Of a stretch of 28,624 nucleotides of DNA, positions 1 to 20,783 are shown piece after piece (positions within the stretch are counted from its first letter, which is position 1; each line of letters begins with the position of its first letter). The DNA comes from Streptomyces niger. GTDB lineage: Bacteria > Actinomycetota > Actinomycetes > Streptomycetales > Streptomycetaceae. The translations under genes were made by a program, and so were the position numbers. Location of the stretch: positions 1 to 28,624 of the forward strand of contig NZ_JOFQ01000041.1 of NCBI RefSeq assembly GCF_000718305.1, in the 5' to 3' direction. The notes beneath the pieces are model-generated. The model saw only the letters and a list, made by a program, of their open reading frames with translations. It was not told the origin of the DNA and did no database searches.

Positions 1-92
1 CGCCCGGTTACATTTCGAACCCGGAAGCTAAGCCTTTCAGCGCCGATGGTACTGCAGGGGGGACCCTGTGGGAGAGTAGGACGCCGCCGAAC
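1..92 (+). rRNA. 5S ribosomal RNA, 3' part
   Basis: The sequence starting CGCCCGGTTACATTTCGAAC and running through GGAAGCTAAGCC, GCGCCGATGGTACTGC and GGGAGAGTAGGACGCCGCC is the characteristic body and 3' end of an actinobacterial 5S rRNA. The 5' part, about 25-30 nt, lies outside the window. The exact 3' end is uncertain by a few bases. A strong terminator follows within 15 nt, so this is the end of a ribosomal RNA operon transcribed on the plus strand. Confidence 0.95.
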
Positions 93-433: not shown

Positions 434-2212
434 TCAGGCCGGCAGGGTGGCGTGTGGCCAGCGGGCGCGGGCCTGTTCGGGGGAGCGGAGCGTGGCGAGC
501 GTCAGCAGGCCCTGGGTGCTGCCCGAGGCGATGAGCTCCGGCAGCGCCGGCAAGGGGGCCAACGCCGCGATGTCGTCGAGGACGAGAGTGAGTGGTGGGT
601 CGAGGCGACCGTCAGATGACCGTTCGGCCATGCGGCGGCCGCGCTCGACCACGCTCGAGACGAGTGCGGTGAGCAATGGCATCGCACCCGGTGCGGTGCG
701 CGGGTCCTCGATGGACTCGCCCACAACGTAAAGCGTTCCCCCTTCGCCGACAAATGATTCGAGGGCGAGGGCATCAGCTCGCCCTGCATTGCTCGCGTCC
801 CGGATGTGCACGGAGGAGAGGGCTGCGAGCGCGCGGGCGACCAGTTGCTGGGCCATGTCGCGGCGTTCGGGGTGTGCGGTCAGCACGGACTCCAGCTCGC
901 CGGCCCGGCCGGACGCCGCCTTGGAGTTCGTACGGAGAATGCGTACGGGCTCGTGGGCGGCGCCGCTGCCCTGCGCCCAGCGGAGGATCTGCCGGAAGGG
1001 TCGGCCGTCCACCGCGGCCGCGTGCAGCCAGCAGCGCAGCAGCGTTTCCGCGGCGTCGGCCAGAGCAGAGTCGAGGGTGCTCATCGGGCGCACGGGGGCC
1101 AGGAGCGCGCCGGCGCGCGTACCGGCGACGGCGATGTCCGCACAGCCCGCGGTCGGGGACCAACGGAGGCGGGCGGGGGTGTCGAGGACGTGCAGCGGGT
1201 CGTACGCGTGCAACGGTCCGAGTTTCGCGCGTGCGTCCTTGGACTCGGCCCACAGGGACGGGTCGGTCGTCGCCACGAGGAGCGGCCCCTCGGCGGCATT
1301 GATCACGTCTAGCGCGGCGGCACGGGCGGCGGGGCGCTCGGAACGGTGGTGATAGTGGACGTGGGGGAGCGCGGTGCCGGCGGCCACCTCGGTCACGCTG
1401 CCGGCAGCACCGGGCGCGACAGGGGGCGCGACGACGGGCGTGACGTCGGGCACGGGGACGGGAGCTGCCGCGGGGGCGGGATCGGGCGCTGGAACGGATT
1501 CTGCTGCTGGGGCGGCGGCCGGCGCGGGTGAGGGAATCGGTGCGGGTGAGGGTGTCGGCGCGGGGGAGGGAGCCGACGCAGATGAGGGGCCCGGCACCGT
1601 GGTGGGAGTCGGCCCCTCCTGCTTCGGCCCCTCCTCCTTCGGTTCCTTGGTCATTGGTACGGAACCCTCAACACCCTTGAGCTGCTGAGCTCCTTCGGGC
1701 CCCTGAGCTCCTCCGGACCCCTGAGCTCCCCCGGGCCGTTCGCCGCCCGTACGCCCCTGCATGTGCTGCCCCGCGCGGCGTTGGGCGCGTACCGCGCGGA
1801 AGCGGGTGACCGTGCCGAGTACGAAGACGGTGAGGACGACCAGGATCATCAGCTCGCTGATGAAGACGCCCCAGAAGAGGCCATAGCCGGAGAGCTGGCG
1901 CGCCGGGGTGCCGGGCCAGGCGCCGGCCAGGTCGTGCGGCTCGGTGACCAGCTCGCGCATGGCGAGCGGGGTGCGCGTGAAGGACAGGTGCGCGGGCCAG
2001 CCGCCGTGGGCGAAGAGGCCGGAGAGCCCCGTGGCGAGCCAGACCAGGACCGTCAGGCCGAGGAGGAAGGCCAGTACGCCGACGAGCAGGGAGTCGGGGA
2101 CGCCGCGCCCCCGTCGCCGGGGTTCGGCCCCGCCGTTCGGGCCCGGTCCGCCGTGGCCGTGTTCCCCGTACGCGTGCCCCTGCCGGTCGTACCGGTCGTA
2201 CCCGTCGCTCAC
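434..2212 (-). CDS. cmdA: CmdA, membrane protein with degenerate TraG/VirD4 coupling-protein domain
   Basis: This 592-residue protein starts at GTG 2212. The N-terminus is hydrophilic and Gly/His-rich. Two membrane segments lie at about 41-68 and 110-133, then a long Pro/Ala linker (about 200-275), then a cytosolic domain (about 280-592). That domain follows the TraG/VirD4 coupling-protein pattern: GPLLVATTDPSLW (309-321), LRWSPTAGCAD (349-359), Walker B-like LTLVLDDIA (541-549) with LAPLPALPELIASG, and a terminal SPEQARARW. The P-loop expected just before residue 300 is absent; the region reads HYHHRSERPAARAAALDVIN. The protein also ends right after the last motif, without the usual C-terminal extension. 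It is the last gene of the cmd cluster, 90 nt after cmdB. From memory, deletion of cmd genes in S. coelicolor affects sporulation, chromosome segregation and actinorhodin production. The symbol is assigned from gene order (SCO4126). Confidence 0.85.
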   Translation of the reverse strand: MSDGYDRYDRQGHAYGEHGHGGPGPNGGAEPRRRGRGVPDSLLVGVLAFLLGLTVLVWLATGLSGLFAHGGWPAHLSFTRTPLAMRELVTEPHDLAGAWPGTPARQLSGYGLFWGVFISELMILVVLTVFVLGTVTRFRAVRAQRRAGQHMQGRTGGERPGGAQGSGGAQGPEGAQQLKGVEGSVPMTKEPKEEGPKQEGPTPTTVPGPSSASAPSPAPTPSPAPIPSPAPAAAPAAESVPAPDPAPAAAPVPVPDVTPVVAPPVAPGAAGSVTEVAAGTALPHVHYHHRSERPAARAAALDVINAAEGPLLVATTDPSLWAESKDARAKLGPLHAYDPLHVLDTPARLRWSPTAGCADIAVAGTRAGALLAPVRPMSTLDSALADAAETLLRCWLHAAAVDGRPFRQILRWAQGSGAAHEPVRILRTNSKAASGRAGELESVLTAHPERRDMAQQLVARALAALSSVHIRDASNAGRADALALESFVGEGGTLYVVGESIEDPRTAPGAMPLLTALVSSVVERGRRMAERSSDGRLDPPLTLVLDDIAALAPLPALPELIASGSTQGLLTLATLRSPEQARARWPHATLPA

Positions 2213-2302
2213 GCCACTGACCCGTCCTTCGTGCTGCCGTACTGTCCGTCCGAGGTCGCCGGAGACCTCGGGAGCGTCACAGGCTCGAAGCCGTCACCGG
2301 CC

Positions 2303-3748
2303 TCAAGCCACCGTCTCGCTCGATTCGTTGCTGAGTTGGCGTGCCATGGCCATGGCTTCGGCGCGTGCTTCGGCCTCGGCGTCCGCGGCGCGTTCCAGGG
2401 CGCGGGCCTCCTCCGTGGGTTGCGCGGAGGCGTCGGCGACGGAGGACTCGGTCATGGCGCGGTCGGTGTAGACCAGCGGACGTTCGGCCTCGGTGATCAG
2501 GTGCTTGACGACCTGGACGTTGCCGTTGACGTCCCAGACCGCGATGCCTGGCGTGAGGGTGGGGATGATCTCCACCGCCCAGCGTGGCAAACCCAGTACG
2601 CGTCCCGTGGCCCGTGCCTCGTCGGCCTTCTGGGCGTAGATGGTCCTGGTCGACGCCATCTTGAGGATGGCCGCCGCCTCACGGGCCGCCGCGCCGTCGA
2701 CCACGTCGCTGAGGTGGTGGACCACGGCGACGAAGGAGAGGCCGAGCCGGCGGCCGAACTTCAGCAGGCGCTGGAAGAGCTGGGCGACGAACGGGGAGTT
2801 GATGATGTGCCAGGCCTCCTCGACCAGGAAGATCCGTTTCTTCCGGTCGGGGCGGATCCAGGTGTGCTCCAGCCAGACGCCCACGATCGCCATCAGGATC
2901 GGCATCGCGATCGAGTTGCGGTCGATGTGGGAGAGGTCGAAGACGATCAGTGGCGCGTCGAGGTCGATGCCCGCGCTCGTCGGGCCGTCGAACATGCCGC
3001 GGAGGTCACCGTCGACGAGGCGGTCCAGCACGAGGGCCACGTCCAGGCCCCAGGCCCGTACGTCGTCCAGGTCGACGTTCATGGCCTCGGCGGACTCCTG
3101 CTTGGGGTGGCGGAGCTGCTCGACGATGTCCGTCAGGACCGGCTGGCGGTCGGTGATGGTGTCGTTGACGTAGGCGTGCGCGACCTTGAGGGCGAAGCCG
3201 GAGCGCTCGTCGAGGCCGTGGCCCATGGCCACCTCGATGATGGTGCGGAGCAGCGCCAGCTGGCCGGTGGTGGTGATCGACGGGTCCAGCGGGTTGAGGC
3301 GGATGCCGCCGTTCAGCGCCGCGGTGGGGTCCAGCCGGATCGGGGTTATGCCGAGTTGTTCGGCGATGAGGTTCCACTCGCCGACGCCGTCCTCGCCCTG
3401 CGCGTCGAGCACCACGACCTGGCGGTCGCGGAACCGGAGCTGGCGTAGGACGTACGTCTTCTCCAGCGCGGACTTGCCGTTGCCGGACTCGCCGAGGACG
3501 AGCCAGTGCGGGGCCGGCAGCTGTTGGCCGTACAGCTGGAAGGGGTCGTAGATGTACCCCTTGCCGCTGTAGACCTCGCGGCCGATGATCACGCCGGAGT
3601 CGCCGAGCCCTGGTGCGGCGGTGGGCAGATAGACGGCCTGGGCCTGCCCGGTGGAGGTCCGTACGGGCAGCCTGGTCGTCTCCACCTTCCCGAAGAGGAA
3701 GCTGGTGAAGGCCTCGGTGATCGCGGCGAGCGGATCGAGCATGGCCAT
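2303..3748 (-). CDS. cmdB: CmdB, VirB4/TraC-like ATPase
   Basis: I chose the ATG at 3748 (481 residues). It has a GGGAGG ribosome site about 10 nt upstream and follows the cmdC stop by 22 nt; longer versions in this frame lie inside cmdC. The start reads MAMLDPLAAITEAF. Walker A is GESGNGKS (86-93), Walker B is RIFLVEEAW (305-313), and FGRRLGLSFVAVVHHLSD (331-348) follows as in VirB4/TraC/HerA-type ATPases. NGGIRLNPLDP (146-156) is also typical. The C-terminus (about 440-481) is an Ala/Glu-rich helix. There are no obvious membrane spans, so it probably sits on the cytoplasmic face with CmdC and CmdD. VirB4 proteins power assembly and transport in type IV secretion. It is the only intact ATPase in the cluster. 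The symbol is from gene order (SCO4127). Confidence 0.9.
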   Translation of the reverse strand: MAMLDPLAAITEAFTSFLFGKVETTRLPVRTSTGQAQAVYLPTAAPGLGDSGVIIGREVYSGKGYIYDPFQLYGQQLPAPHWLVLGESGNGKSALEKTYVLRQLRFRDRQVVVLDAQGEDGVGEWNLIAEQLGITPIRLDPTAALNGGIRLNPLDPSITTTGQLALLRTIIEVAMGHGLDERSGFALKVAHAYVNDTITDRQPVLTDIVEQLRHPKQESAEAMNVDLDDVRAWGLDVALVLDRLVDGDLRGMFDGPTSAGIDLDAPLIVFDLSHIDRNSIAMPILMAIVGVWLEHTWIRPDRKKRIFLVEEAWHIINSPFVAQLFQRLLKFGRRLGLSFVAVVHHLSDVVDGAAAREAAAILKMASTRTIYAQKADEARATGRVLGLPRWAVEIIPTLTPGIAVWDVNGNVQVVKHLITEAERPLVYTDRAMTESSVADASAQPTEEARALERAADAEAEARAEAMAMARQLSNESSETVA

Positions 3749-3770
3749 GACGTACGCGCCTCCCAGCGGC

Positions 3771-5333
3771 TTAGCGGCGGATCCCGGTCGCGAACGGAAG
3801 CGTGTTGACGAAGGCCCGGTGGTGCTCGCGGTCGCACCACTCCAGCTTGAGGTAGGACTTGCCGGCGGAGGCGCGGATGGTCCGCTTGTCACGGGCCAGC
3901 GCCTCGGGCGAGCGGGACGAGACGGTGATGTAGCCGACGAGGTTCACCCCGGCCGCGCCGGACGCCAGGTCTTCGCCGCGCTGGTCGACACGGCCGTGGT
4001 GGGCCACGTCGCGCGGGTCCACCACGCGGTTCATCTTGGCGGCGCGGCTGGCTTCCGCGTCGTCGTTGGTCTTCTCGGTCAGCATGCGCTCGATCGCCAC
4101 CTCGGTCGGCTCCAGGTCCATGGTGACGGCGACCGTGCGGATCACGTCGGGGGTGTGGACGAGCAGCGGGGCCAGGAAGTTGACGCCGACCGGGGTCAGC
4201 GGCCACTCCTTGATCCACGCGGTGGCGTGGCACCAGGGCGCGCGGGTCGAGGACTCGCGCGTCTTGGCCTGGAGGTAGGTGGGCTCCATCGCGTCCAGCT
4301 CGGCCGGCCAGGCGTTGCGCTTGCTCATCGCCTGGATGTGGTCGATGGGGTGGTCCGGGTCGTACATGGAGTGCACGAGGGAGGCGAGGCGGGCCTGGCC
4401 GAGGGGCTGGCGTACGCGGATGTCGGCCTCGGCGAGGCGGGCGCAGATGTCGGTCAGCTCGCGGGCCATGACGACGGCGAGGCCGGCGTCCTTGTCCAGG
4501 CGCTTCCGCAGCAGGCCGCCGTTGTGCATGCGGGCCGCGCGGGCCATGGTCTCGGCCTCGGTGGCCAGCTCGCGGTTGTAGTGCATGCAGGCGACGAGGT
4601 ACGCGCGGTGCTGCTCGGAGGAGGTGGAGACCATGGACTGCAGCTGGTCGTAGGACTCCTGCAGCCATTGTGGGGCGCTGTGGTCGCCGCGCTGGGCGAC
4701 GTCCTTGGCGTGCGCGTCCGGGTCGGCGGGGAGCGTACGGGCCAGCATCTGCAGGCGCGTGACGAACCCGTCGCCGTTCGCGACGTGCTTGAGGAGCGTC
4801 CCGAAGCGGTCGACCAGGGCCTCCTGGTCCTCGCTGTCGCGCAGGCCGACGCCGGGGCCCTCGATCTCTATGGCCGCGGTGACCGTACGCCGGTCGGCGT
4901 GCAGCAGTACGGCGATCTCGTCCGGGCCGAAGGGCGCGGCGAGCCAGTTGATGCGGCCGATGCCGGGCGGCGGGCCGACCTCGACCTCACGGCCGTCGAG
5001 ACTGATGCCTGCCTCCTGGGCGCCGGAGCGGTACGTCGCGCCCTGGCGAAGCGTCCGCTTGTAGCTGCGGTTGATCTCGAACCACCTGTAGAACGTCCGG
5101 CCGCGGTACGGGACGTACACCGCGGCCAGTGCGATGAGCGGAAAGCCGGTGAGCGTCACGATGCGCAGGGGAAGGACGGGCACCAGCAGGCCGCACATCA
5201 TGCCGAGGAACGCGCCCGCGATGATCAACGCGATCTCGCCGGTCTCCCGGTTCTTGCCGATGACGGCGTTGGGCCGGGCGCGGCCGATGAGATACGTGCG
5301 TCGGGGCGTGATCGGGTGGGACTGGGTGCTCAA
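3771..5333 (-). CDS. cmdC: CmdC, SCO6880-family T4SS-associated membrane protein
   Basis: This 520-residue protein starts at TTG 5333. The TTG overlaps the cmdD stop in a 4-nt TTGA and is preceded by GGAGGT with 8-nt spacing, which supports it over an ATG at 5340 that is out of frame. The N-terminus RRTYLIGRARPNAVIGKNRE is followed by two membrane helices (about 34-56 and 58-76), then YRGRTFYRWFEINRSYKRT and a large soluble domain. This architecture matches the 'SCO6880 family', which accompanies VirB4-like ATPases in actinobacterial conjugation loci and resembles PrgI/TcpE-plus-cytosolic-domain proteins. The soluble part has no P-loop. Its likely role is to couple the CmdB ATPase to the membrane channel, which is inference from family context. 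The symbol is from gene order (SCO4128). Confidence 0.88.
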   Translation of the reverse strand: MSTQSHPITPRRTYLIGRARPNAVIGKNRETGEIALIIAGAFLGMMCGLLVPVLPLRIVTLTGFPLIALAAVYVPYRGRTFYRWFEINRSYKRTLRQGATYRSGAQEAGISLDGREVEVGPPPGIGRINWLAAPFGPDEIAVLLHADRRTVTAAIEIEGPGVGLRDSEDQEALVDRFGTLLKHVANGDGFVTRLQMLARTLPADPDAHAKDVAQRGDHSAPQWLQESYDQLQSMVSTSSEQHRAYLVACMHYNRELATEAETMARAARMHNGGLLRKRLDKDAGLAVVMARELTDICARLAEADIRVRQPLGQARLASLVHSMYDPDHPIDHIQAMSKRNAWPAELDAMEPTYLQAKTRESSTRAPWCHATAWIKEWPLTPVGVNFLAPLLVHTPDVIRTVAVTMDLEPTEVAIERMLTEKTNDDAEASRAAKMNRVVDPRDVAHHGRVDQRGEDLASGAAGVNLVGYITVSSRSPEALARDKRTIRASAGKSYLKLEWCDREHHRAFVNTLPFATGIRR

Positions 5334-6670
5334 CGCCCATCACCTCCTGCTGTCTTGCCGGTGCGGGCGGAACCGCCCGAGGCCGCGCCGGGACGCGGGC
5401 CGGGGCTCGTACGGGGCGCGGGTGGGGTGGCGGTGCCGGAGCCGCCGCGTGCGCTGTGCGCGGCGACGCCGCCGGCGACGGCGTCGGCCGGGCGGGACTG
5501 GCCGCCACTGCTGTTGCCGGTGTCGCCGGAGCCGCCGCCGCTGCCGCGGGAGCTGTGGGTCTTGATGCCCTGTGAGACGAGCGCGGCGGGGGAGGAGACG
5601 AGCGCCGCGGCCTGGCTGCCGTCGGTCGCGGCCTTCTTGTTGGTGCGGGCCGCCATGATTTCGTCGCCGAAGCCGGGGACGAAGCGGTAGATCATGGCGC
5701 TCGCGAAGATGGCGAGCAGGATGATGGCGAGGCCGGAGACGACGGCGGAGAAGGAGTCGGGGCCCTTTTCGGAGGAGAGCGCGCCGGCGATGCCGAGCAC
5801 GATCACGATGACCGGCTTCACCATGATCACGGCGATCATGATGCCGGCCCAACGGCGTACGTGGCCCCACATGTTCTTGTCGACGAGGCCGGCGTAGACG
5901 ACCGTGCCGAGCAGGGCGCCGACGTAGAGCAGGGCGGCGCGGATGACCAGTTCCAGCCAGAGGATGCCGGCGGCGAGCACGGAGACGAGGGCGACGACGA
6001 TCAGCATGATCGGGCCGCCGCCGATGTCCGTGCCCTTCTTCAGGGCTTCGGAGAAGGACCCGAAGAAAATGTCGGTCTGGGCGCCGGTGCCCTTGGCGAT
6101 GATCTCGGTGACGCCGTCGGTGGCGGAGACGATGGTGTAGAGGATCAGGGGGGTGAAGGCGGAGGCGAGGACGGTGAGCCACAGGAAGCCGACCGCCTCA
6201 CTGATGGCCTCCGTGAGGCGGACGCCGCGGACGGCGCGCTTGGCCACGGCGAGCAGCCAGAGCACGAGCGTGAGGACCGTGGAGGCGGCGAAGACGACGG
6301 CGTACTGCCGCAGGAACGCGGCGTTCGTGAAGTCGACCTGCGACGTTGCCTTCACGGCGTCGGACAGCTTGGTGACGATCCACGCGGCGGCATCGGCACA
6401 ACCCTTGGCCAACGACTGCAGGGGGTCGAGGGGGTTGCTGCCCGAGGCGGGCGTGGTCGAGCCGCCGCTCCCACCCGAGCCACGTTCCTCGCACAGCTCT
6501 TTGGCCTTGTCGGTGAGGAGGTCGCAGGGGTTGTCGGTCGGCTTCGGCGAGGGCGCGGCGAAGGCGCGTGAGGCGAAGAGGACGGCCCAGGTCTGGACAC
6601 CGGCGAACACTGCCGCGAGCGAGAGGCCGCGGCTGCCGGGCCCAACGGTGCGGGGAGACTTACCGGGCAT
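5330..6670 (-). CDS. cmdD: CmdD, VirB6/TrbL-like polytopic membrane protein
   Basis: I chose the ATG at 6670 (446 residues). GGAGGG lies 7 nt upstream, and the start overlaps the cmdE stop by 11 nt; the longer frame-open form begins with Arg-rich sequence that is a shadow of cmdE. A signal-like segment (about 14-39, ending SRAFAAP) is followed by a short extracytoplasmic stretch with cysteines at 49, 60 and 91. Six membrane helices follow at about 122-143, 161-183, 220-240, 242-262, 276-298 and 309-330. The tail is Gly/Ser/Pro-rich. Signal peptide, Cys-containing loop, multiple TMs and a low-complexity tail match VirB6/TrbL channel proteins of type IV secretion. It overlaps cmdC by 4 nt, so the two are translationally coupled. 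The symbol is from gene order (SCO4129). Confidence 0.88.
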   Translation of the reverse strand: MPGKSPRTVGPGSRGLSLAAVFAGVQTWAVLFASRAFAAPSPKPTDNPCDLLTDKAKELCEERGSGGSGGSTTPASGSNPLDPLQSLAKGCADAAAWIVTKLSDAVKATSQVDFTNAAFLRQYAVVFAASTVLTLVLWLLAVAKRAVRGVRLTEAISEAVGFLWLTVLASAFTPLILYTIVSATDGVTEIIAKGTGAQTDIFFGSFSEALKKGTDIGGGPIMLIVVALVSVLAAGILWLELVIRAALLYVGALLGTVVYAGLVDKNMWGHVRRWAGIMIAVIMVKPVIVIVLGIAGALSSEKGPDSFSAVVSGLAIILLAIFASAMIYRFVPGFGDEIMAARTNKKAATDGSQAAALVSSPAALVSQGIKTHSSRGSGGGSGDTGNSSGGQSRPADAVAGGVAAHSARGGSGTATPPAPRTSPGPRPGAASGGSARTGKTAGGDGR

Positions 6671-7517
6671 ACGTGAACCCTCCGAACCCTTCGACGGCCT
6701 TGGACATCTCCTCGGCCGTCGCGGCGGCCTGGTCGCGGCCGACCGGCGCCGGCCCCTTCTTCTGCGAGACGTCGGTGACCTTCCAGTCACCCCCGACCCA
6801 CTGCAGCTTCATGGTGGTCGTGTACCAGCTCTCCGTGACCGGGTTTTCCGAGCCCTCACCGGCCAGGCCGAAGAGGGAGGAGTACCAGACCGCGACCTTG
6901 GCGGACGTCCCCTCGAACGTGTCGACCTTCGTGCCGACCGGGTTCGCCCGGGACACGAACGTCTGGCCGTCCGGCGCCTTGCCCTCCTTGTCCAGGCCGA
7001 CGCCGGCCAGGAATGTCGGGTCGCCGTAGACCTTGCGCAGGGCTTCCTTACGGGCGGCCGCGGCGGACGGGGCGTAGACCGCCTCGACGATCGCGTCGCG
7101 CGTGCCGGAGCGGTACATGCCGTCGCTGGCGAGCGCCACCGCGTAATTCGCCGCCGCCGACTGGGCCCCCTGTTCGGATTTGGGGAAGCCGGAGGGGATG
7201 GCGGGGTTGGCGGAGTTCTTGCCGGAGACGGGGCGTTGGCCCGTGGGGGCGGTGGGCTGGGCGGCCGGGGCGCCGGAGTTGCCGTCGGAGTCCGTGCCGG
7301 AGCTGCCGCCGCCGCGGTTGGCGAAGGCTATGGCGGCGATGAGCAGCACGACCACGCCGACGATCGTGACGAGGTTGCGGCTGGACATGCCGCCGCGGGG
7401 CCGGCGGCCGGTGCCGTACACGTCGCCCTCGCCGCCGGGAAGTCTGGTACGTGTCTGGCCGGGGCCCTGGCCGCTGTACTCCCCGCCGCCGTACGCTCCG
7501 TCGTCACCGAGACTCAT
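6660..7517 (-). CDS. cmdE: CmdE, single-pass membrane protein with VirB8/TcpC-like (NTF2-like) domain
   Basis: This 285-residue protein starts at ATG 7517 (GAGGGGG upstream). A Gly/Arg-rich cytosolic N-terminus precedes one membrane helix at about 46-66 (LVTIVGVVVLLIAAIAFANR), then a Ser/Gly/Pro linker, then an extracytoplasmic domain. In that domain, AAANYAVALASDGMYRSGTR starts a long helix, and ESWYTTTMKLQWVGGDWKV gives the paired strands ending in 'W.V' typical of NTF2-like folds in VirB8/TcpC proteins. The fold call is from pattern only. In type IV systems VirB8-like proteins scaffold the channel in the periplasm or wall zone. A 433-nt non-coding stretch separates it from cmdF, so it may have its own promoter. 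The symbol is from gene order (SCO4130). Confidence 0.88.
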   Translation of the reverse strand: MSLGDDGAYGGGEYSGQGPGQTRTRLPGGEGDVYGTGRRPRGGMSSRNLVTIVGVVVLLIAAIAFANRGGGSSGTDSDGNSGAPAAQPTAPTGQRPVSGKNSANPAIPSGFPKSEQGAQSAAANYAVALASDGMYRSGTRDAIVEAVYAPSAAAARKEALRKVYGDPTFLAGVGLDKEGKAPDGQTFVSRANPVGTKVDTFEGTSAKVAVWYSSLFGLAGEGSENPVTESWYTTTMKLQWVGGDWKVTDVSQKKGPAPVGRDQAAATAEEMSKAVEGFGGFTYAR

Positions 7518-7950
7518 GGTGCCTGCGCCCCCTCAACCGACATCGCTGCCGTCTTCGCCGTCGCCTTGCCGCAACCCGGGTACGACCGTAGCCGCGTGGG
7601 AGGCGGCCCGGTCGTTCTGATACGAGTACACCCCACTGTGACGGAACGGCGAACCCGGCCGCATCGCCTGTGGACAACTGCACGGCTGGTGCGGGGTGGG
7701 CTGTGGACGAGTGGACGGAGTGGGCATCAGCATGTGGCCTCGGACAGGGATTTGGGCCAGGTGTGGCGGCCGCGCACAGACGAAGACCATGGGACGGGAG
7801 TTGGGGCACGGCGCGGAAGAGCGCGTGGCGGGCGCGTGGACGGACGGGCGGGGCGTACGCACGGGCGTACGAAGGAGACACGGGTCGGAAGGCGGCGGGC
7901 AGGCGGACGGCAGCGGCCGCGCGGCCCGGCGGAGGTGACGTTTCGGCCCG
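7518..7950. other. 433-nt non-coding gap inside the cmd cluster
   Basis: No credible gene is seen in any frame; open frames here are compositional. The stretch holds two DnaA-box-like nonamers on the minus strand (7669-7677, exact TTGTCCACA; 7702-7710, TCGTCCACA) and a run of CGTACG-type short palindromes around 7855-7875. Its size within an otherwise overlapping gene string suggests a separate promoter for cmdE-cmdA, but I cannot place -35/-10 elements with confidence. Confidence 0.6.
7669..7710 (-). promoter_or_regulatory. Pair of DnaA-box-like sites
   Basis: Minus-strand TTGTCCACA at 7669-7677 is an exact match to the Streptomyces DnaA-box consensus. A second site, TCGTCCACA (7702-7710), differs at one position. 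Both have the same orientation with 24 nt between them. They lie in the cmd intergenic gap. Binding is not shown by the sequence alone. Confidence 0.45.
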
Positions 7951-8259
7951 CTAGACCGCCATGCCGTAGACGATGGTGAAGAGGGTGCCCAGTGACCCGA
8001 TGATGAAGACGCCGGTCAGGCCGGCGACGATCAGGCCCTTGCCCTGTTCGGCGCTGAAGGTGTCGCGGAGGGCCGTGGCGCCGATGCGCTGCTTCGCCGC
8101 ACCCCAGATCGCGATGCCGAGGCAGAGCAGGATGGCGACCGCCATCACCACTTCGACCATCACCTTCGCCTCGTTGCCCAGGGTCCCGAACGGGCCCCAG
8201 TCCGGGGCGATTCCGCCGATAATGGTGGTGATGTCGCCCTTTTCGGCCGCAATGAACAT
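7951..8259 (-). CDS. cmdF: CmdF, small two-TM pilin-like membrane protein
   Basis: I chose ATG 8259 (102 residues; GGTGAG 7 nt upstream). GTG 8271 is a near alternative, and the frame stays open to 8310. The protein starts MFIAAEKGDITTIIGGIAPD. It has two hydrophobic helices: KVMVEVVMAVAILLCLGIAI (about residues 31-52) and a C-terminal one ending GVFIIGSLGTLFTIVYGMAV (about 76-102). Between them is a basic/amphipathic loop (AAKQRIGATALRDTFSAEQG). Size and two-helix layout match VirB2/TrbC-like pilins and the small membrane proteins that head Gram-positive type IV loci. It is the first gene of the cmd string and is divergent from the wall hydrolase gene. The symbol is from gene order (SCO4131). 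Confidence 0.85.
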   Translation of the reverse strand: MFIAAEKGDITTIIGGIAPDWGPFGTLGNEAKVMVEVVMAVAILLCLGIAIWGAAKQRIGATALRDTFSAEQGKGLIVAGLTGVFIIGSLGTLFTIVYGMAV

Positions 8260-8576
8260 TTGTGAACTCACCGCCCCTAATGGGTAGTTGTCTCCCGTAC
8301 CACACGGCACGGCCGGTCTCTATCTTCGCTGACGATTGCCCGTGCCGATGTCGACTTGGCGTCAAACTTTGGCGGATCCCGTGTGGGCGGCGGGAGCAAG
8401 GGTGCGTGCGTCGCCCATAGGGCTCATTATTCTCACCGTGTGTACCACGCTTCGTCACTCTGAGCAATATTGAGGCGGGAAGTGAACACGCGAAGTGAAC
8501 GGGCAAAGGGGAGGCGTGAAGCGAACAGGCGGGGCGGACAGGTGCTCGGTTCGTCGGTAGCCTGACGGGGACTGCT
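8260..8576. other. Divergent intergenic region cmdF / wall hydrolase
   Basis: These 317 nt must carry the promoters for both divergent units. The clearest structure is the 13-bp direct-repeat array at 8479-8543, described separately. The AT-richer stretch around 8425-8475 (CTCATTATTCTC, GAGCAATATTGAG) is the likeliest promoter zone. I see no small gene here. Confidence 0.55.
8479..8543 (+). repeat. Five-unit 13-bp direct-repeat array
   Basis: Units start every 13 nt at 8479, 8492, 8505, 8518 and 8531. The first nine bases are GAAGTGAAC, GAAGTGAAC, AAAGGGGAG, GAAGCGAAC and GGGGCGGAC, each followed by a 4-nt spacer (ACGC, GGGC, GCGT, AGGC, AGGT). Units 1, 2 and 4 are near-identical; 3 and 5 are degenerate. 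The array lies 34 nt upstream of the hydrolase start. It looks like an iteron or activator-type binding array. On the minus strand the core reads GTTCACTTC, reminiscent of PHO-box units, but the period is 13 and not 11. Confidence 0.7.
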
Positions 8577-9599
8577 GTGGGGGTGAGGGGTGCGGTGCGC
8601 AAGCTCTGGGTGGGAACGGGGATCGGTACGGGCCTCGGTGCCTGCTTCCTCGCGTTGCTGATCATCGGTACGTACGCCGCGGCCGGCGGGATCGGCGGCG
8701 CCGCCGGGCGGGCCGTCGGCCTGGCCAAGGGGGCGGTGCCGGCCGCGTACCAGCCGCACGTGCAGAAGTGGGGCACGCTGTGCCCCGCGATCAACCCGGC
8801 GCTCCTGGCCGCGCAGTTGTACCAGGAGAGCGGCTGGAACCCGAAGGCGCAGAGCCCGGCGGCGGCGCAGGGCCTCGCGCAGTTCATCCCCGGTACGTGG
8901 GCCACGCACGGCGTCGACGGCGACGGCGACGGCGACAAGGACGTGTGGGACCCGGTGGACGCGATCGCGTCGGCCGCCTCCTACGACTGCGAACTGGCCA
9001 ACTACGTGAAGAAGGTCCCCGGGGACGCCACGCACAACATGCTGGCGGCGTACAACGCGGGTGCCTACCGGGTCATCCAGTACGACGGCGTGCCGCCGTA
9101 CCGCGAGACGCAGAATTACGTCAAGATCATCACCACCCTCGCGAAGAGCTTCGAGGCGCCGGTCCAGAACGTGCAGCCCTCGCAGCAGGCTGCCGGTGCC
9201 ATCTACTACGCACAGAAGAAGCTCGGCACGCCGTACCTCTGGGGTGGCAACGGCACGGCGGACCAGGGCGGGCGGTTCGACTGCTCGGGCCTGACCAAGG
9301 CCGCTTTCAAGACGGTCGGCATCGACCTGCCCCGCGTCGCGAACGACCAGTGGAACGCCGGCCCGCACCCGAAGCGGAGCGAACTGCTCCCCGGCGACCT
9401 GGTGTTCTTCGCCAACGACCTGAACGACCCACGGTCCATCCACCACGTGGGCATATACGTGGGCGGCGGCTACATGATCAACGCGCCGTACACGGGTGCG
9501 GTGATCAGATTCGACAAGATCGACACACCTGACTACATCGGCGCCACCCGCGTCACCGAAGATGGCGCAAAAGCGCTCCCCCGTGAGAACGCTGCGTGA
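8577..9599 (+). CDS. Bifunctional lytic transglycosylase / NlpC-P60 peptidase (VirB1-like)
   Basis: This 340-residue protein starts at GTG 8577; GTG 8583 and 8592 are alternatives. A membrane anchor lies at about 13-35. The transglycosylase (SLT) domain spans about 65-190, with catalytic Glu84 in LYQESGWNPKA, then AAQGLAQFIPGTW and NMLAAYNAGAYRV. DGDGDGDKDVWDP (114-126) is an acidic, possibly calcium-binding loop. The NlpC/P60 domain spans about 203-330, with Cys236 in FDCSGLT, His290 in HHVGIYVGGG, and Asn302 at the third polar position (MINAPYTG), where His is common. Such two-domain enzymes open peptidoglycan for Gram-positive type IV secretion (VirB1/TcpG/Orf14-like). Its divergent position beside the cmd cluster fits that role. 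It corresponds to SCO4132 by gene order. Confidence 0.93.
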   Translation: MGVRGAVRKLWVGTGIGTGLGACFLALLIIGTYAAAGGIGGAAGRAVGLAKGAVPAAYQPHVQKWGTLCPAINPALLAAQLYQESGWNPKAQSPAAAQGLAQFIPGTWATHGVDGDGDGDKDVWDPVDAIASAASYDCELANYVKKVPGDATHNMLAAYNAGAYRVIQYDGVPPYRETQNYVKIITTLAKSFEAPVQNVQPSQQAAGAIYYAQKKLGTPYLWGGNGTADQGGRFDCSGLTKAAFKTVGIDLPRVANDQWNAGPHPKRSELLPGDLVFFANDLNDPRSIHHVGIYVGGGYMINAPYTGAVIRFDKIDTPDYIGATRVTEDGAKALPRENAA

Positions 9600-16655: not shown

Positions 16656-17435
16656 TCAGCCGAAGCGGCCGGAGATGTAGTCCTCGGTGTCCTGGACCGA
16701 CGGGTTGGAGAAGATCCGCTCGGTCTCGTCGATCTCGACGAGCTTGCCGGGCTGGCCGACGGCGGAAAGGTTGAAGAACGCCGTACGGTCCGAGACGCGC
16801 GCGGCCTGCTGCATGTTGTGCGTGACGATGACGATCGTGAAGCGCTCCTTCAGCTCCCCGATCAGGTCCTCGATGGCGAGGGTGGAGATCGGGTCGAGCG
16901 CGGAGCAGGGCTCGTCCATCAGCAGGACCTGCGGCTCGACCGCGATGGCGCGGGCGATGCAGAGGCGCTGCTGCTGGCCGCCGGAGAGGCCGGAGCCGGG
17001 CTTGTTGAGCCGGTCCTTGACCTCGTTCCAGAGGTTGGCGCCCTTGAGGGACTTCTCCACGACGTCGTTCAGCTCGGACTTCTTCTTCACCGTGCCGTTC
17101 AGCCGCAGGCCGGCCGCCACGTTGTCGAAGATCGACATGGTGGGGAAGGGGTTGGGGCGCTGGAAGACCATGCCGACCGTGCGGCGGACGGCGACCGGGT
17201 CGACGCCCGAGCCGTAGAGGTTCTCGTCGTCCAGCAGCACCTTGCCCTCGACGCGGCCGCCGGGGGTGACCTCGTGCATGCGGTTCAGGGTCCGCAGGAA
17301 CGTGGACTTGCCGCAGCCGGAGGGGCCGATGAAGGCCGTCACCGAGCGGGGCTCGACGGTCATGGAGATGTCGTCGATGGCCTTGTGGCTGCCGTAGAAG
17401 GCGGAGAGGCCGCTGACGTCGATTCGCTTGGCCAT
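16656..17435 (-). CDS. pstB: PstB, phosphate ABC transporter ATPase
   Basis: I chose ATG 17435 (259 residues, the usual PstB length); GTG 17444 would add three residues. It has Walker [10 protein letters not shown] (37-45), the Q-loop in [19 protein letters not shown] (87-105), ABC signature LSGGQQQR (150-157), Walker B VLLMDEP (170-176) and switch His in VTHNMQQ (204-210). [12 protein letters not shown] is diagnostic of PstB. It energises phosphate import through PstC-PstA. It is the last gene of the operon, 58 nt after pstA, and ends near the shared terminator. Confidence 0.97.
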
Positions 17436-17493
17436 GGGAATCACTGCTTCTTTCTGGTGGCCCCGATTCGGCGGAGCCGCATCATCGGGTGCC

Positions 17494-18576
17494 TTAACGG
17501 CCGGTCTTGGGGGCCTTCCAGCGGGCGATGCCGCGGGCCACCAGGTTGAGGATCATGACGAAGGCGATGAGGACGAGGGCCGCGGCCCAGGCGCGGTCGT
17601 AGCTCGCCTCGGAGCCCTGCTGCCACTGCTGGTACACGTACAGCGGCAGGGACTGCTGGGCGCCTTCGAAGGGGTTGTTGTTGATCGTCTTGGCGCCCCA
17701 CACCAGGAGCAGCACCGGCGCGGTCTCACCGGTGATACGGGCGATGGCCAGCATGACGCCGGTGGTGATGCCGCCGATGGAGGTGGGCAGGACGACCTTG
17801 AGGATGGTGCGCCACTTCGGTACGCCGAGGGCGAGGGAGGCCTCGCGCAGCTCGTTCGGTACCAGCTTGAGCATCTCCTCCGTGGAGCGGACCACGACCG
17901 GCATCATCAGGATCGCCAGGGCCATGGAGCCGGCGAAGCCGGAGGGGCCGAAGCCGAGGATCAGGATCCACACCGAGAGGACGAAGAGACCGGCGACGAT
18001 CGAGGGGACGCCCGTCATGACGTCGACGAAGAAGGTGACGGCCTTGGCGAGCCTGCCGCGCCCGTACTCGACCAGGTAGATCGCGGTGAGCAGGCCGATC
18101 GGCGCGGCGATCAGGGTGGCCAGGCCGACCTGCTGCAGGGTGCCGGTGATCGCGTGGTTGATGCCGCCGCCGACCATGGCGTCCGGCAGGGTGCCCATGG
18201 AGTGGGTCAGGAAGTAGCCGTCCAGGACCTTGCTGCCGCGGACGACGGTCTCCCAGATCAGGGAGGCGAGCGGGAGGACGGCGAGCAGGAAGGCGATCCA
18301 GACCAGGCTGGTGGCCAGCCGGTCCTTCGCCTGCCGGGCGCCCTCGACCTTCGCGGCGACCGCGTAGGTACCGATGATGAAGAGCAGCGCGGCGATCAGG
18401 CCCCACTGGATCTTGCTGTCCAGGCCGGCGACGAGGCCGATGCCGGCGCCGGCGGCCAGCGCGACCAGTGCGAAGACCGGCGGCGACCAGCGCGGCAGGC
18501 GGGCCTGCCGGAGGGTGACGGGGGGCCGCGGCGCGCTGTCGGCGACCGGCCGCTTCTCGGTGATGACGTTACTCAT
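17494..18576 (-). CDS. pstA: PstA, phosphate ABC transporter permease
   Basis: This 360-residue polytopic protein has an ATG at 18576 that overlaps the pstC stop (ATGA). After a short cytosolic lead, two helices (about 35-50, 55-70) precede the canonical six-helix permease domain. The EAA loop reads [20 protein letters not shown], followed by [20 protein letters not shown] and GETAPVL, all typical of PstA. The extra N-terminal helices are common in actinobacterial PstA. It pairs with PstC to form the membrane channel. Confidence 0.96.
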
Positions 18577-19568
18577 GCGTTGGCCCCCGAGTACTCCTTG
18601 CGGCGGGCGATGATCAGCCGGGCCGCGCCGTTGACCAGCAGGGTGATGACGAAGAGGACGAGGCCGGAGGCGATCAGCGCGTCCTGGCCGAAGGTGTCGG
18701 CCTCACTGAACTTGCTGGCGATGTTCTGGGCGAACGTGCCGCCGCCCGGGTCCAGCAGGCTGAGCCCGATGAGGAAGCTGGGGGAGAGGACCGTGGCGAC
18801 GGCCATGGTCTCGCCGAGCGCGCGACCCAGGCCCAGCATCGAGGCGCTGATGATGCCGGAGCGGCCGAAGGGGAGCACCGACATGCGGATGACCTCCCAG
18901 CGCGTGGCGCCGAGGGCGAGCGCGGCCTCTTCGTGCATCTTCGGGACCTGGAGGAAGACCTCGCGGCTGACGCTGGTGACGATCGGCAGGATCATGATCG
19001 CCAGCAGGATGCCGACGGTGAACAGCGAGCGCGCGGCGCCCTGGGAGTAGCTGAAGATCCCGGTCCAGCCGAGGTAGTCGTCCAGCCAGCTGTACAGGCC
19101 CGACAGGTGCGGGACGAGGAAGAGCGCGCCCCAGAGGCCGTAGATGATGCTGGGGACCGCGGCGAGCAGGTCGATGACGTAGCCCAGCGGCGAGGCCAGC
19201 TTGCGCGGCGCGTAGTGCGAGATGAAGAGCGCGATGCCGACCGCCACCGGGACCGCGATGACCATCGCGATGATCGAGCTGACGACGGTGCCGAAGGCGA
19301 GGACGGCGATGCCGAACTTGGGCTCGGCGCCGGTGGGGTCCCACTCGAAGGTGGTGAAGAAGTTGGCCTTGTCGCCCTGGATGGCGAGGACCGAGCGGTA
19401 GGTGAGGAAGGCCGCGATGGCGGCCATGATCACCAGCAGTGCGATGCCGGAGCCGCGCGAGAGACCGAGGAAGACGCGGTCACCGGGGCGTACGGACTTG
19501 CCGCTGACCTCGGAGGGCTCGACGGGCGCTGCGGGGGGAGGGTTCTGGGGTATCGCTGAGGTATCCAT
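18573..19568 (-). CDS. pstC: PstC, phosphate ABC transporter permease
   Basis: This 331-residue protein starts at ATG 19568 (GGAGAA upstream). A first helix at about 38-57 (GIALLVIMAAIAAFLTYRSV) precedes the permease domain. Other marks are TLxxS-type periplasmic sequence, YVIDLLAAVPSIIYGLWGAL, the EAA loop EEAALALGATRWEVIRMSVL, and LGLGRALGETMAVATVL. It overlaps pstA by 4 nt. A stem-loop lies in the 93-nt gap to pstS. Confidence 0.96.
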   Translation of the reverse strand: MDTSAIPQNPPPAAPVEPSEVSGKSVRPGDRVFLGLSRGSGIALLVIMAAIAAFLTYRSVLAIQGDKANFFTTFEWDPTGAEPKFGIAVLAFGTVVSSIIAMVIAVPVAVGIALFISHYAPRKLASPLGYVIDLLAAVPSIIYGLWGALFLVPHLSGLYSWLDDYLGWTGIFSYSQGAARSLFTVGILLAIMILPIVTSVSREVFLQVPKMHEEAALALGATRWEVIRMSVLPFGRSGIISASMLGLGRALGETMAVATVLSPSFLIGLSLLDPGGGTFAQNIASKFSEADTFGQDALIASGLVLFVITLLVNGAARLIIARRKEYSGANA

Positions 19569-19618
19569 AGGTTCTCCGGTCTGCGGAGCCGGCGGGCTCC
19601 AGGCGGCGGTGCACCGGA

Positions 19619-19655
19619 GGGCGGCGGCCCGCGCGTCGTGCGCCGGCCGCCGCCC
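19619..19655 (-). terminator. Stem-loop between pstS and pstC
   Basis: A perfect 11-bp stem GGGCGGCGGCC (19619-19629) and GGCCGCCGCCC (19645-19655) with a 15-nt loop, just after the pstS stop. There is no U-tract. Such structures behind binding-protein genes usually act as leaky terminators or 3'-end stabilisers, giving more pstS mRNA than pstCAB mRNA. Confidence 0.75.
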
Positions 19656-19661
19656 GGTGGG

Positions 19662-20783
19662 TCAGGAGAGCGACGAGACGGCCTTGCGGACCTTGTCGGC
19701 GATCTCGGTGGGCAGCGGCGCGTAGCCCTGCTCCTTGAGGGTGGCCTGGCCGTCCTCGCTGGCGAGGTAGGTCAGGAAGGACTTGGTGGCGGGCAGGGTC
19801 TCGGCCTTGTTGCCCTTGTCGCAGGCGACCTCGTACGTCACCAGCGTGATCGGGTACGCGCCCTCGGCCTTGGTCTTGTAGTTCAGTTCCAGGGCCAGGT
19901 CCTCGCCCTTGCCGACCTGCTTGGCCTCGGAGATCGCCTTGGAGGCGTTCTCGACGGTGGCGTCGACGGGCTTTTGGGCGCCGGTGTTCAGCTTGGCCGT
20001 GTCGATCTTGCCGGCCGTCGCGTAGGACAGCTCGAAGTAGGAGATCGCGCCGCTGGTCTGCTTGACCTGCGAGGAGACGCCGGAGGAGCCGGAGGCCGCC
20101 TGGCCGCCCTTGCCCTCCCAGGTCTTCGCGGGCTCGTGCGGCCAGGCCTTGGGCGCGGCGCCCTTGAGGTACTTGGTGAAGTTGTCGGTGGTGCCGGAGT
20201 CGTCCGAGCGGTGGAACGCCTGGATCTTCAGGTCCGGCAGCTTGGCGCCCGGGTTCAGCTTCTTGATCGCCGGGTCGTTCCAGTTGGTGATCTTCGAGTC
20301 GAAGATCTTGCCCAGGGTCTCGGCGTCCAGCACCAGGTCGTCCACGCCCGGGACGTTGTAGCCGACCGCGATCGGGCCGCCGACCATCGGCAGGTTGATC
20401 GCCTCGCCGCCCTTGCAGATCTTCTTGGACTTGGCGACCTCCTCGGGCTTGAGCGCCGAGTCGGAGCCCGCGAAGGCGGTCTGGCCCTGCAGGAACGTGG
20501 TGATACCGGCGCCGGAGCCCGTGGGCTGGTAGTTGATCTCGGTGTCCTTGCAGGCACCGGAGTAGTTCTGCACCCAGACGTCCATGGCGTTCTTCTGCGC
20601 CGAGGAGCCGGAGGCGAGCAGCTTGCCCTTGCCGTCGCACTTGATGTTCGAGGTCTTGGCGGAGGAGGCGCCGGGCCCGCCGGTGGTGTCGTCCGAGCCG
20701 CACGCCGAGAGGGCCAGGGCTCCGGAGACGGCGAGAGCGCCAACCGCGAGGGCGCGAACCCGGTTCTTGCGCTGAAGCTTCAC
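19662..20783 (-). CDS. pstS: PstS, phosphate-binding lipoprotein
   Basis: This 373-residue protein starts at GTG 20783 (GGAAGGAA about 9 nt upstream). The signal peptide KLQRKNRVRALAVGALAVSG ends in lipobox LSAC, with the lipidated Cys at 28. Ligand-binding landmarks of PstS are present: KLLASGSSAQKNAMDVWVQN (around 54-73), GSGAGITTFLQGQTAFAGSD (the phosphate loop, around 88-107) and FHRSDDSGTTDNFTKYLKG (around 190-208). It captures phosphate at the cell surface and hands it to PstCAB. It heads the pst operon and follows four PHO-box units, so phosphate starvation probably induces it through PhoP. Confidence 0.97.
   Translation of the reverse strand: MKLQRKNRVRALAVGALAVSGALALSACGSDDTTGGPGASSAKTSNIKCDGKGKLLASGSSAQKNAMDVWVQNYSGACKDTEINYQPTGSGAGITTFLQGQTAFAGSDSALKPEEVAKSKKICKGGEAINLPMVGGPIAVGYNVPGVDDLVLDAETLGKIFDSKITNWNDPAIKKLNPGAKLPDLKIQAFHRSDDSGTTDNFTKYLKGAAPKAWPHEPAKTWEGKGGQAASGSSGVSSQVKQTSGAISYFELSYATAGKIDTAKLNTGAQKPVDATVENASKAISEAKQVGKGEDLALELNYKTKAEGAYPITLVTYEVACDKGNKAETLPATKSFLTYLASEDGQATLKEQGYAPLPTEIADKVRKAVSSLS

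Follow-up and report, generated by a model that had tools for sequence, protein, structure and literature searches.

A chromosomally fixed machine of type IV secretion descent in the Streptomyces order, with probable loss of DNA selection

General features of the cmd locus

The stretch analysed here, called the window below, comprises 28,624 nucleotides of Streptomyces niger (assembly GCF_000718305.1, contig NZ_JOFQ01000041.1, positions 1 to 28,624) and contains the cmd operon with its divergent neighbour tgdA, orthologous to cmdABCDEF and tgdA (SCO4126-4132) of S. coelicolor. An earlier annotation from the letters alone (the sequence-only reading) had described six minus-strand genes and one divergent gene as a domesticated type IV secretion system (T4SS), and all seven were found in their places. 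In reading order the minus strand carries cmdF (7951..8259), encoding 102 amino acids with two membrane helices by hydropathy; cmdE (6660..7517), with one membrane helix and an NTF2-like domain; cmdD (5330..6670, the start at 6670 being assumed), a polytopic membrane protein; cmdC (3771..5333), of the SCO6880 family, with a predicted membrane segment and, by model, a VirB4 N-terminal domain; cmdB (2303..3760, exact start unsettled), the C-terminal ATPase half of VirB4; and, last, cmdA (434..2212), a degenerate VirD4-type coupling protein by alignment with VirD4-type relatives and by hydropathy. On the plus strand, tgdA (8577..9599; SCO4132 orthologue) encodes a predicted wall hydrolase with SLT and NlpC/P60 domains. 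The coding status of all seven open reading frames (ORFs) is backed by their third-position G+C content. The true starts of CmdB, CmdD and CmdF are probably later than in the longest ORFs, and many CmdF homologues are 102 amino acids long.

The S. coelicolor operon is reported to be cotranscribed, and both the similarity of CmdB to VirB4 and the proposal of a type IV-like channel date from 2009 (PMC2782261). According to the same source, colonies are paler in every single cmd deletion except that of cmdA, which leaves sporulation visibly unaffected; chromosome segregation is disturbed and anucleate spores occur in the cmdB and cmdA-F deletions, where scored; and cmd deletion disturbs sporulation in three species. 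Insertions in tgdA and cmdBCDEF are reported to raise actinorhodin alike (PMC6585502). The operon, its phenotypes, the CmdB-VirB4 similarity and the T4SS link were thus already known, and the developmental role put forward by the sequence-only reading agrees with this published record; that reading lacked the 2009 link and the plasmids, described below, that carry the lost parts.

CmdB, CmdC and the membrane components

CmdB exceeds the cut-off of the Pfam profile AAA_10 (E 4e-12). Its single match among PDB sequences at E 0.01 is 4ag5, a VirB4-like protein (3.2e-6). Its Walker A and Walker B motifs are intact in 78/78 cmd loci, a set made up of 63 loci from a locus search, loci L012-L025 and the window. 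CmdC is above the NCBIfam SCO6880_fam cut-off (1.6e-55); neither it nor CmdD or CmdF has a Pfam match at E 1, and the CmdC profile returned one irrelevant match from the PDB sequences. In a model comparison, residues 121-515 of CmdC fit the fold of the VirB4 N-terminal domain. VirB4 is accordingly divided in these models, CmdC being the predicted N-terminal half and CmdB the ATPase half, so that the VirB4-like component named by the sequence-only reading is a motor of that type spread over two genes. That reading had also suggested comparing CmdC with the TcpE fold; a T4SS fold is indeed present, and an identity as merely a TcpE/PrgI protein is ruled out by the fit of residues 121-515.

The model of CmdE has a VirB8-like fold, as anticipated, with the NTF2-like domain after one membrane helix; its profile had no match among PDB sequences. 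CmdD has six hydrophobic segments by hydropathy, and its VirB6/TrbL-type likeness is one of topology and position. For CmdF, which has no profile match, the pilin/VirB2 likeness is one of size and position; a T4SS_pilin match is confined to a distant cluster, L030 (E 5e-4, below the cut-off). TgdA, which is VirB1-like, passes the Pfam cut-offs for NLPC_P60 (2e-24) and SLT (9.5e-17). A divergent TgdA adjoins 59 of the 69 cmd loci that contain CmdF, as expected if the hydrolase is conserved beside cmd. The two-domain VirB4, the VirB8-type NTF2 domain behind one helix and the VirB1-type hydrolase, each indicated by sequence or model, bear out the T4SS ancestry of the locus.

CmdA and the question of DNA selection

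CmdA has a sub-threshold match to TraG-D_C in Pfam (E 0.013). It can be aligned with VirD4-type proteins encoded in L026, a paralogous cluster, and in L030. These proteins pass Pfam T4SS-DNA_transf (PF02534) at 3.8e-17 and 2.7e-24, respectively, and by way of these relatives the alignments assign CmdA a VirD4 ancestry. Two N-terminal membrane helices are retained, a proline-rich linker occupies the place where Walker A stood, and the C-terminus is shortened. A CmdA match was found in 54 of the 78 cmd loci, and 52 could be aligned at Walker A (L077 and L096 could not and were dropped). By this measure the locus has no working VirD4 coupling ATPase: GxxxxGK[ST] stands at the aligned place in 0/52 cmd-type CmdA proteins versus 20/20 paralogous loci (of which L026 and L032 are one and the same locus), pattern matches of L014, L087 and L094 lying off that place and being excluded from the counts. 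The VirD4-like label given to CmdA therefore holds for its descent but not for its ATP site. A near relic, GPARSGKA, is kept in L020, from another family, and the stretch is eroded further in Actinacidiphila loci, so that the decay of CmdA looks graded.

CmdA was undetected in 24/78 loci, and five divergent CmdA queries also gave no match there. Some of these loci lie where a contig stops. The 24 are all 11 loci named Kitasatospora, seven named Streptomyces, one named Saccharothrix, all four of family f3, and L025, which is uninformative on cmdA loss because its contig ends beside cmdB. In L013 (5809-7466) cmdA is seemingly split over two frames, which fits pseudogene decay or a sequencing error. 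Judged from these alignments, the coupling subunit either no longer has an ATP site or is encoded by a gene that escaped detection. With no live coupling protein encoded, the Cmd machine alone should not select DNA, and a dead coupling protein agrees with the published finding that sporulation is not impaired when cmdA is deleted. Some T4SSs (Bordetella Ptl, Brucella VirB) are not known to have a VirD4, so that a non-working CmdA speaks against DNA coupling, not against T4SS membership.

Regarding relaxases, Pfam gave no match among 17 window ORFs scanned, a non-exhaustive scan as several picks were in the wrong frame, and a search of the entire genome for TrwC-type relaxases, the one family covered at that scale, found none on the window's contig. 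The sole match of the TrwC profile in the genome is a broken TrwC-type relaxase on another contig (C23:27035-28003). The lack of a relaxase noted earlier thus stands for the window ORFs scanned, and for the TrwC type on its contig, but not for the genome. Since the SLP2-type linear plasmid L141 (NZ_CP101650.1) also has no annotated relaxase, such an absence is weak evidence by itself.

These results bear on the idea, favoured by the sequence-only reading and raised before it in Xie 2009, that Cmd is a working DNA channel through which cellular DNA would pass membranes or septa during development. Such a channel would explain the disturbed segregation and the anucleate spores reported for strains deleted for cmdB or for cmdA-F (PMC2782261), and the VirB4-type motor is intact; against this, the coupling protein has no Walker A wherever it could be aligned and escapes detection in other loci, no TrwC-type relaxase was found on the contig, and deletion of cmdA leaves sporulation visibly unaffected, as reported (PMC2782261). 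We consider such a channel improbable, and the evidence on CmdA does not support the movement of DNA as the sequence-only reading worded it.

Distribution across genomes

CmdB was found in 291 of 293 genomes of the Streptomyces order, with a best E of 1e-160 or lower in each matching row, in agreement with the proposed fixation in the core chromosome. The presence/absence comparison suggested at the outset gave the same picture with CmdC: 37/37 members of the genus, 15/15 other members of the order and 2/9 other members of the class have it, one of the last two (G058) at 71% identity and one weakly. In a class-wide sample at E 1e-60 it was found in 41/394 genomes, 40 of them in the genus (own genome included). 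The cmd operon is therefore a core trait of the order and, in these samples, seldom met elsewhere. Among named relatives, the closest CmdC comes from Streptomyces sp. Ru73 (98%).

This conservation argues against mobility as an integrative conjugative element (ICE). It also weighs on the notion that Cmd is an old, decaying integrated element whose mutant phenotype is a side effect. The decay of CmdA would suit that notion, as would the 'defective ICE' reported in 2022 near the chromosome middle in all 11 Streptomyces strains (PMC9513070), which may be the cmd operon, an identity that we infer. However, CmdF is 79-94% identical across L012-L024 (63% in L025), which together with the distribution of CmdB indicates selection, not drift, and deletion is reported to disturb sporulation in three species (PMC2782261). 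A decaying element is disfavoured and very improbable.

The first base of contig C41, from an 8.5-Mb genome of Streptomyces type, is also that of the window, whose edge cuts a 5S rRNA gene of which the 3' part is present (1..92, plus strand; Rfam RF00001, 64.8 bits), the remaining rRNA operon being outside view. The rRNA operon named by the sequence-only reading as a neighbour is thus seen in part. A 5S gene lies beyond cmdB in 22 of the 52 cmd loci with sufficient flank: the adjacency is common in Streptomyces, not general. No tRNA was found in the window. Genes downstream of the operon (16656-20783) encode an ATPase of an ABC transporter, a pair of permeases and a binding protein of PBP-like type; they probably represent the phosphate (pst) operon.

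A paralogous cluster (L026-L028, L032-L048) occurs in some Streptomyces, with F, E, D, C, B, A and a TgdA-like gene on one strand. Its coupling protein is intact, its CmdC is about 40% identical to that of cmd, and its CmdE has about 437 amino acids, compared with 285 in cmd, with two matching stretches. Pfam showed no relaxase among ten flanking ORFs (of 175, two genomes) and the four ORFs of L026 that are not cmd genes. The ORFs around these clusters include a transposase of the IS110 type and an IstB-like ATPase.

CmdD, CmdE and CmdF on plasmids

A tblastn search with CmdD found relatives on 26 of 72,556 plasmid records. Ten of them (34-40% identity) also bear CmdB and CmdC relatives and are complete paralogous systems. 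The other 16 (44-61% identity) are Streptomyces plasmids of 24-129 kb, nine with a CmdE relative and two with a CmdF relative, and one further plasmid has a CmdF relative without a CmdD match. We examined 15 plasmids, namely this last one and 14 of the 16; the two omitted resemble those examined in size and match identity. CmdB and CmdC profiles matched none of the 15 whole records at E 1, in searches run without their own positive control. In a local full-sensitivity search of plasmid stretches the best CmdB-profile value was 0.22, compared with 3.4e-62 for a distant SLP2-type control; positive controls were detected with both profiles in the local search and with the CmdB profile in the MobF plasmid search described below. 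The TrwC relaxase profile matches 10/15 plasmids and the VirD4 profile (PF02534) the same ten, which are nine CmdD plasmids and the CmdF-only plasmid; [GA]xxxxGK[ST] is present in 7/7 of their coupling proteins that were read. The three plasmid-borne CmdF proteins share 91-95% identity with their best chromosomal counterpart in the set.

The remaining five plasmids, four linear and one circular, match neither the TrwC relaxase profile nor PF02534. An uncharacterised P-loop family is shared by four of them (L130, L132, L135, L140), with proteins of about 690-760 amino acids, one with a weak AAA_10 match (8e-5), and these five may therefore have a motor of their own. An uncharacterised family of about 630-705 amino acids is shared by L130, L132, L135 and L139.

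When 48 CmdD proteins were placed in a tree, the 14 copies from plasmids all nested in the chromosomal clade, inside Streptomyces. A single clade of 25 chromosomal CmdD rows was rejected by the approximately unbiased (AU) test with long branches (L135, L139, L140) removed and with L090, L104, L027 and L041 not carried over from the first tree (p-AU 0.0135, optimistic because the group was chosen after inspection of the tree). This nesting suggests that the plasmid cmdD genes were acquired from a host.

A MobF query matched 47 plasmid records. Streptomyces accounts for 25 (24 under that name, plus [Kitasatospora] papulosa), of which 22 were compared. VirB4 is present on 0/10 of those with CmdD or CmdF versus 5/12 of those without (Fisher two-sided p 0.040). 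These data make it conceivable, and we propose only tentatively, that Cmd is a host-provided conjugation chassis: plasmids without VirB4 would dock a relaxase, a live coupling protein and their own host-derived CmdD/E/F on CmdB-CmdC and TgdA, and so transfer. The chromosome would retain the motor for development, and plasmids would have shed theirs since each host supplies one. Transfer of the SLP2 derivative pQC542 is reported unchanged in a cmd deletion, and SLP2.21-23 resemble SCO4127-4129 (PMC2782261); as SLP2 has its own CmdB relative, this is what borrowing from the host predicts. Weighing against such borrowing, 7/12 MobF plasmids without CmdD/F have no VirB4 either: such plasmids would depend on the host for every part, rely on some other helper, or fail to transfer. 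CmdD/F are then not required by every such plasmid, which would suit a different function, that of inhibitors or exclusion factors jamming the host machine or blocking rival plasmids. Such factors would also be expected to resemble host subunits, but an inhibitor has no need of the relaxase and coupling protein found on 9/14 tested CmdD plasmids and on the CmdF-only plasmid, and we regard this function as unlikely.

Proposed mechanism and significance

Taken together, we favour, with a probability of about 0.62, the view that Cmd descends from a T4SS and is now a membrane machine of the core chromosome throughout the Streptomyces order, from which DNA selection has been lost. CmdB and CmdC would form a motor acting in the membrane on the pilin-like CmdF and the VirB6-like CmdD; CmdD, CmdE and CmdF would be a membrane channel or polymer built or driven by this motor, with TgdA opening the wall at those sites in aerial hyphae. 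The product would support septation and segregation, and loss of Cmd would upset both. Cmd alone would no longer choose DNA; less certainly, a plasmid relaxase and live coupling protein, with host-derived CmdD/E/F, might restore DNA selection on the host motor.

If so, Cmd would be a T4SS of the core chromosome on which bacterial development depends. If it also serves plasmids, the capacity for transfer in the main antibiotic-producing genus would be partly a host trait, and the label 'non-mobilizable', borne by 22 of the 26 records with a CmdD relative, would need revision for many of them.

Comparison with known systems

In open-licence literature, consulted mostly by title and abstract, we found no description of a VirB4 divided between two genes, of an inactive coupling protein here or of plasmids with the complementary parts. 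The portion consulted of the 2009 S. coelicolor paper names CmdB as VirB4-like, mentions SLP2 and SCO6878/6880/6881 relatives, and holds no report of these three features (PMC2782261). Gram-positive T4SSs are described as almost wholly DNA-transfer systems in a review section from which Cmd is absent (PMC12857230).

The R388 Trw system, a VirB/D4-type T4SS, offers the TrwK/VirB4 N-terminal domain that CmdC matches by fold and the VirB8 fold of CmdE; unlike it, Cmd has VirB4 in two genes, a degenerate coupling protein and no relaxase found nearby. The Gram-positive T4SS proteins TraM (pIP501) and PrgL (pCF10) sit on conjugative plasmids. The SLP2-type plasmid L141 resembles Cmd in its CmdB (profile 1.3e-63), its CmdC (profile 3.6e-8) and a lytic transglycosylase/C40 protein, but it is plasmid-borne, has an FtsK/SpoIIIE-type protein, and its CmdB is just 34% identical. 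For the putative borrowing by plasmids a parallel is SGI1/IncC, in which, by the title of the report, the island reshapes the mating apparatus of its helper (PMC5389848); the helper of SGI1 is a plasmid, whereas the helper proposed here would be the core chromosome.

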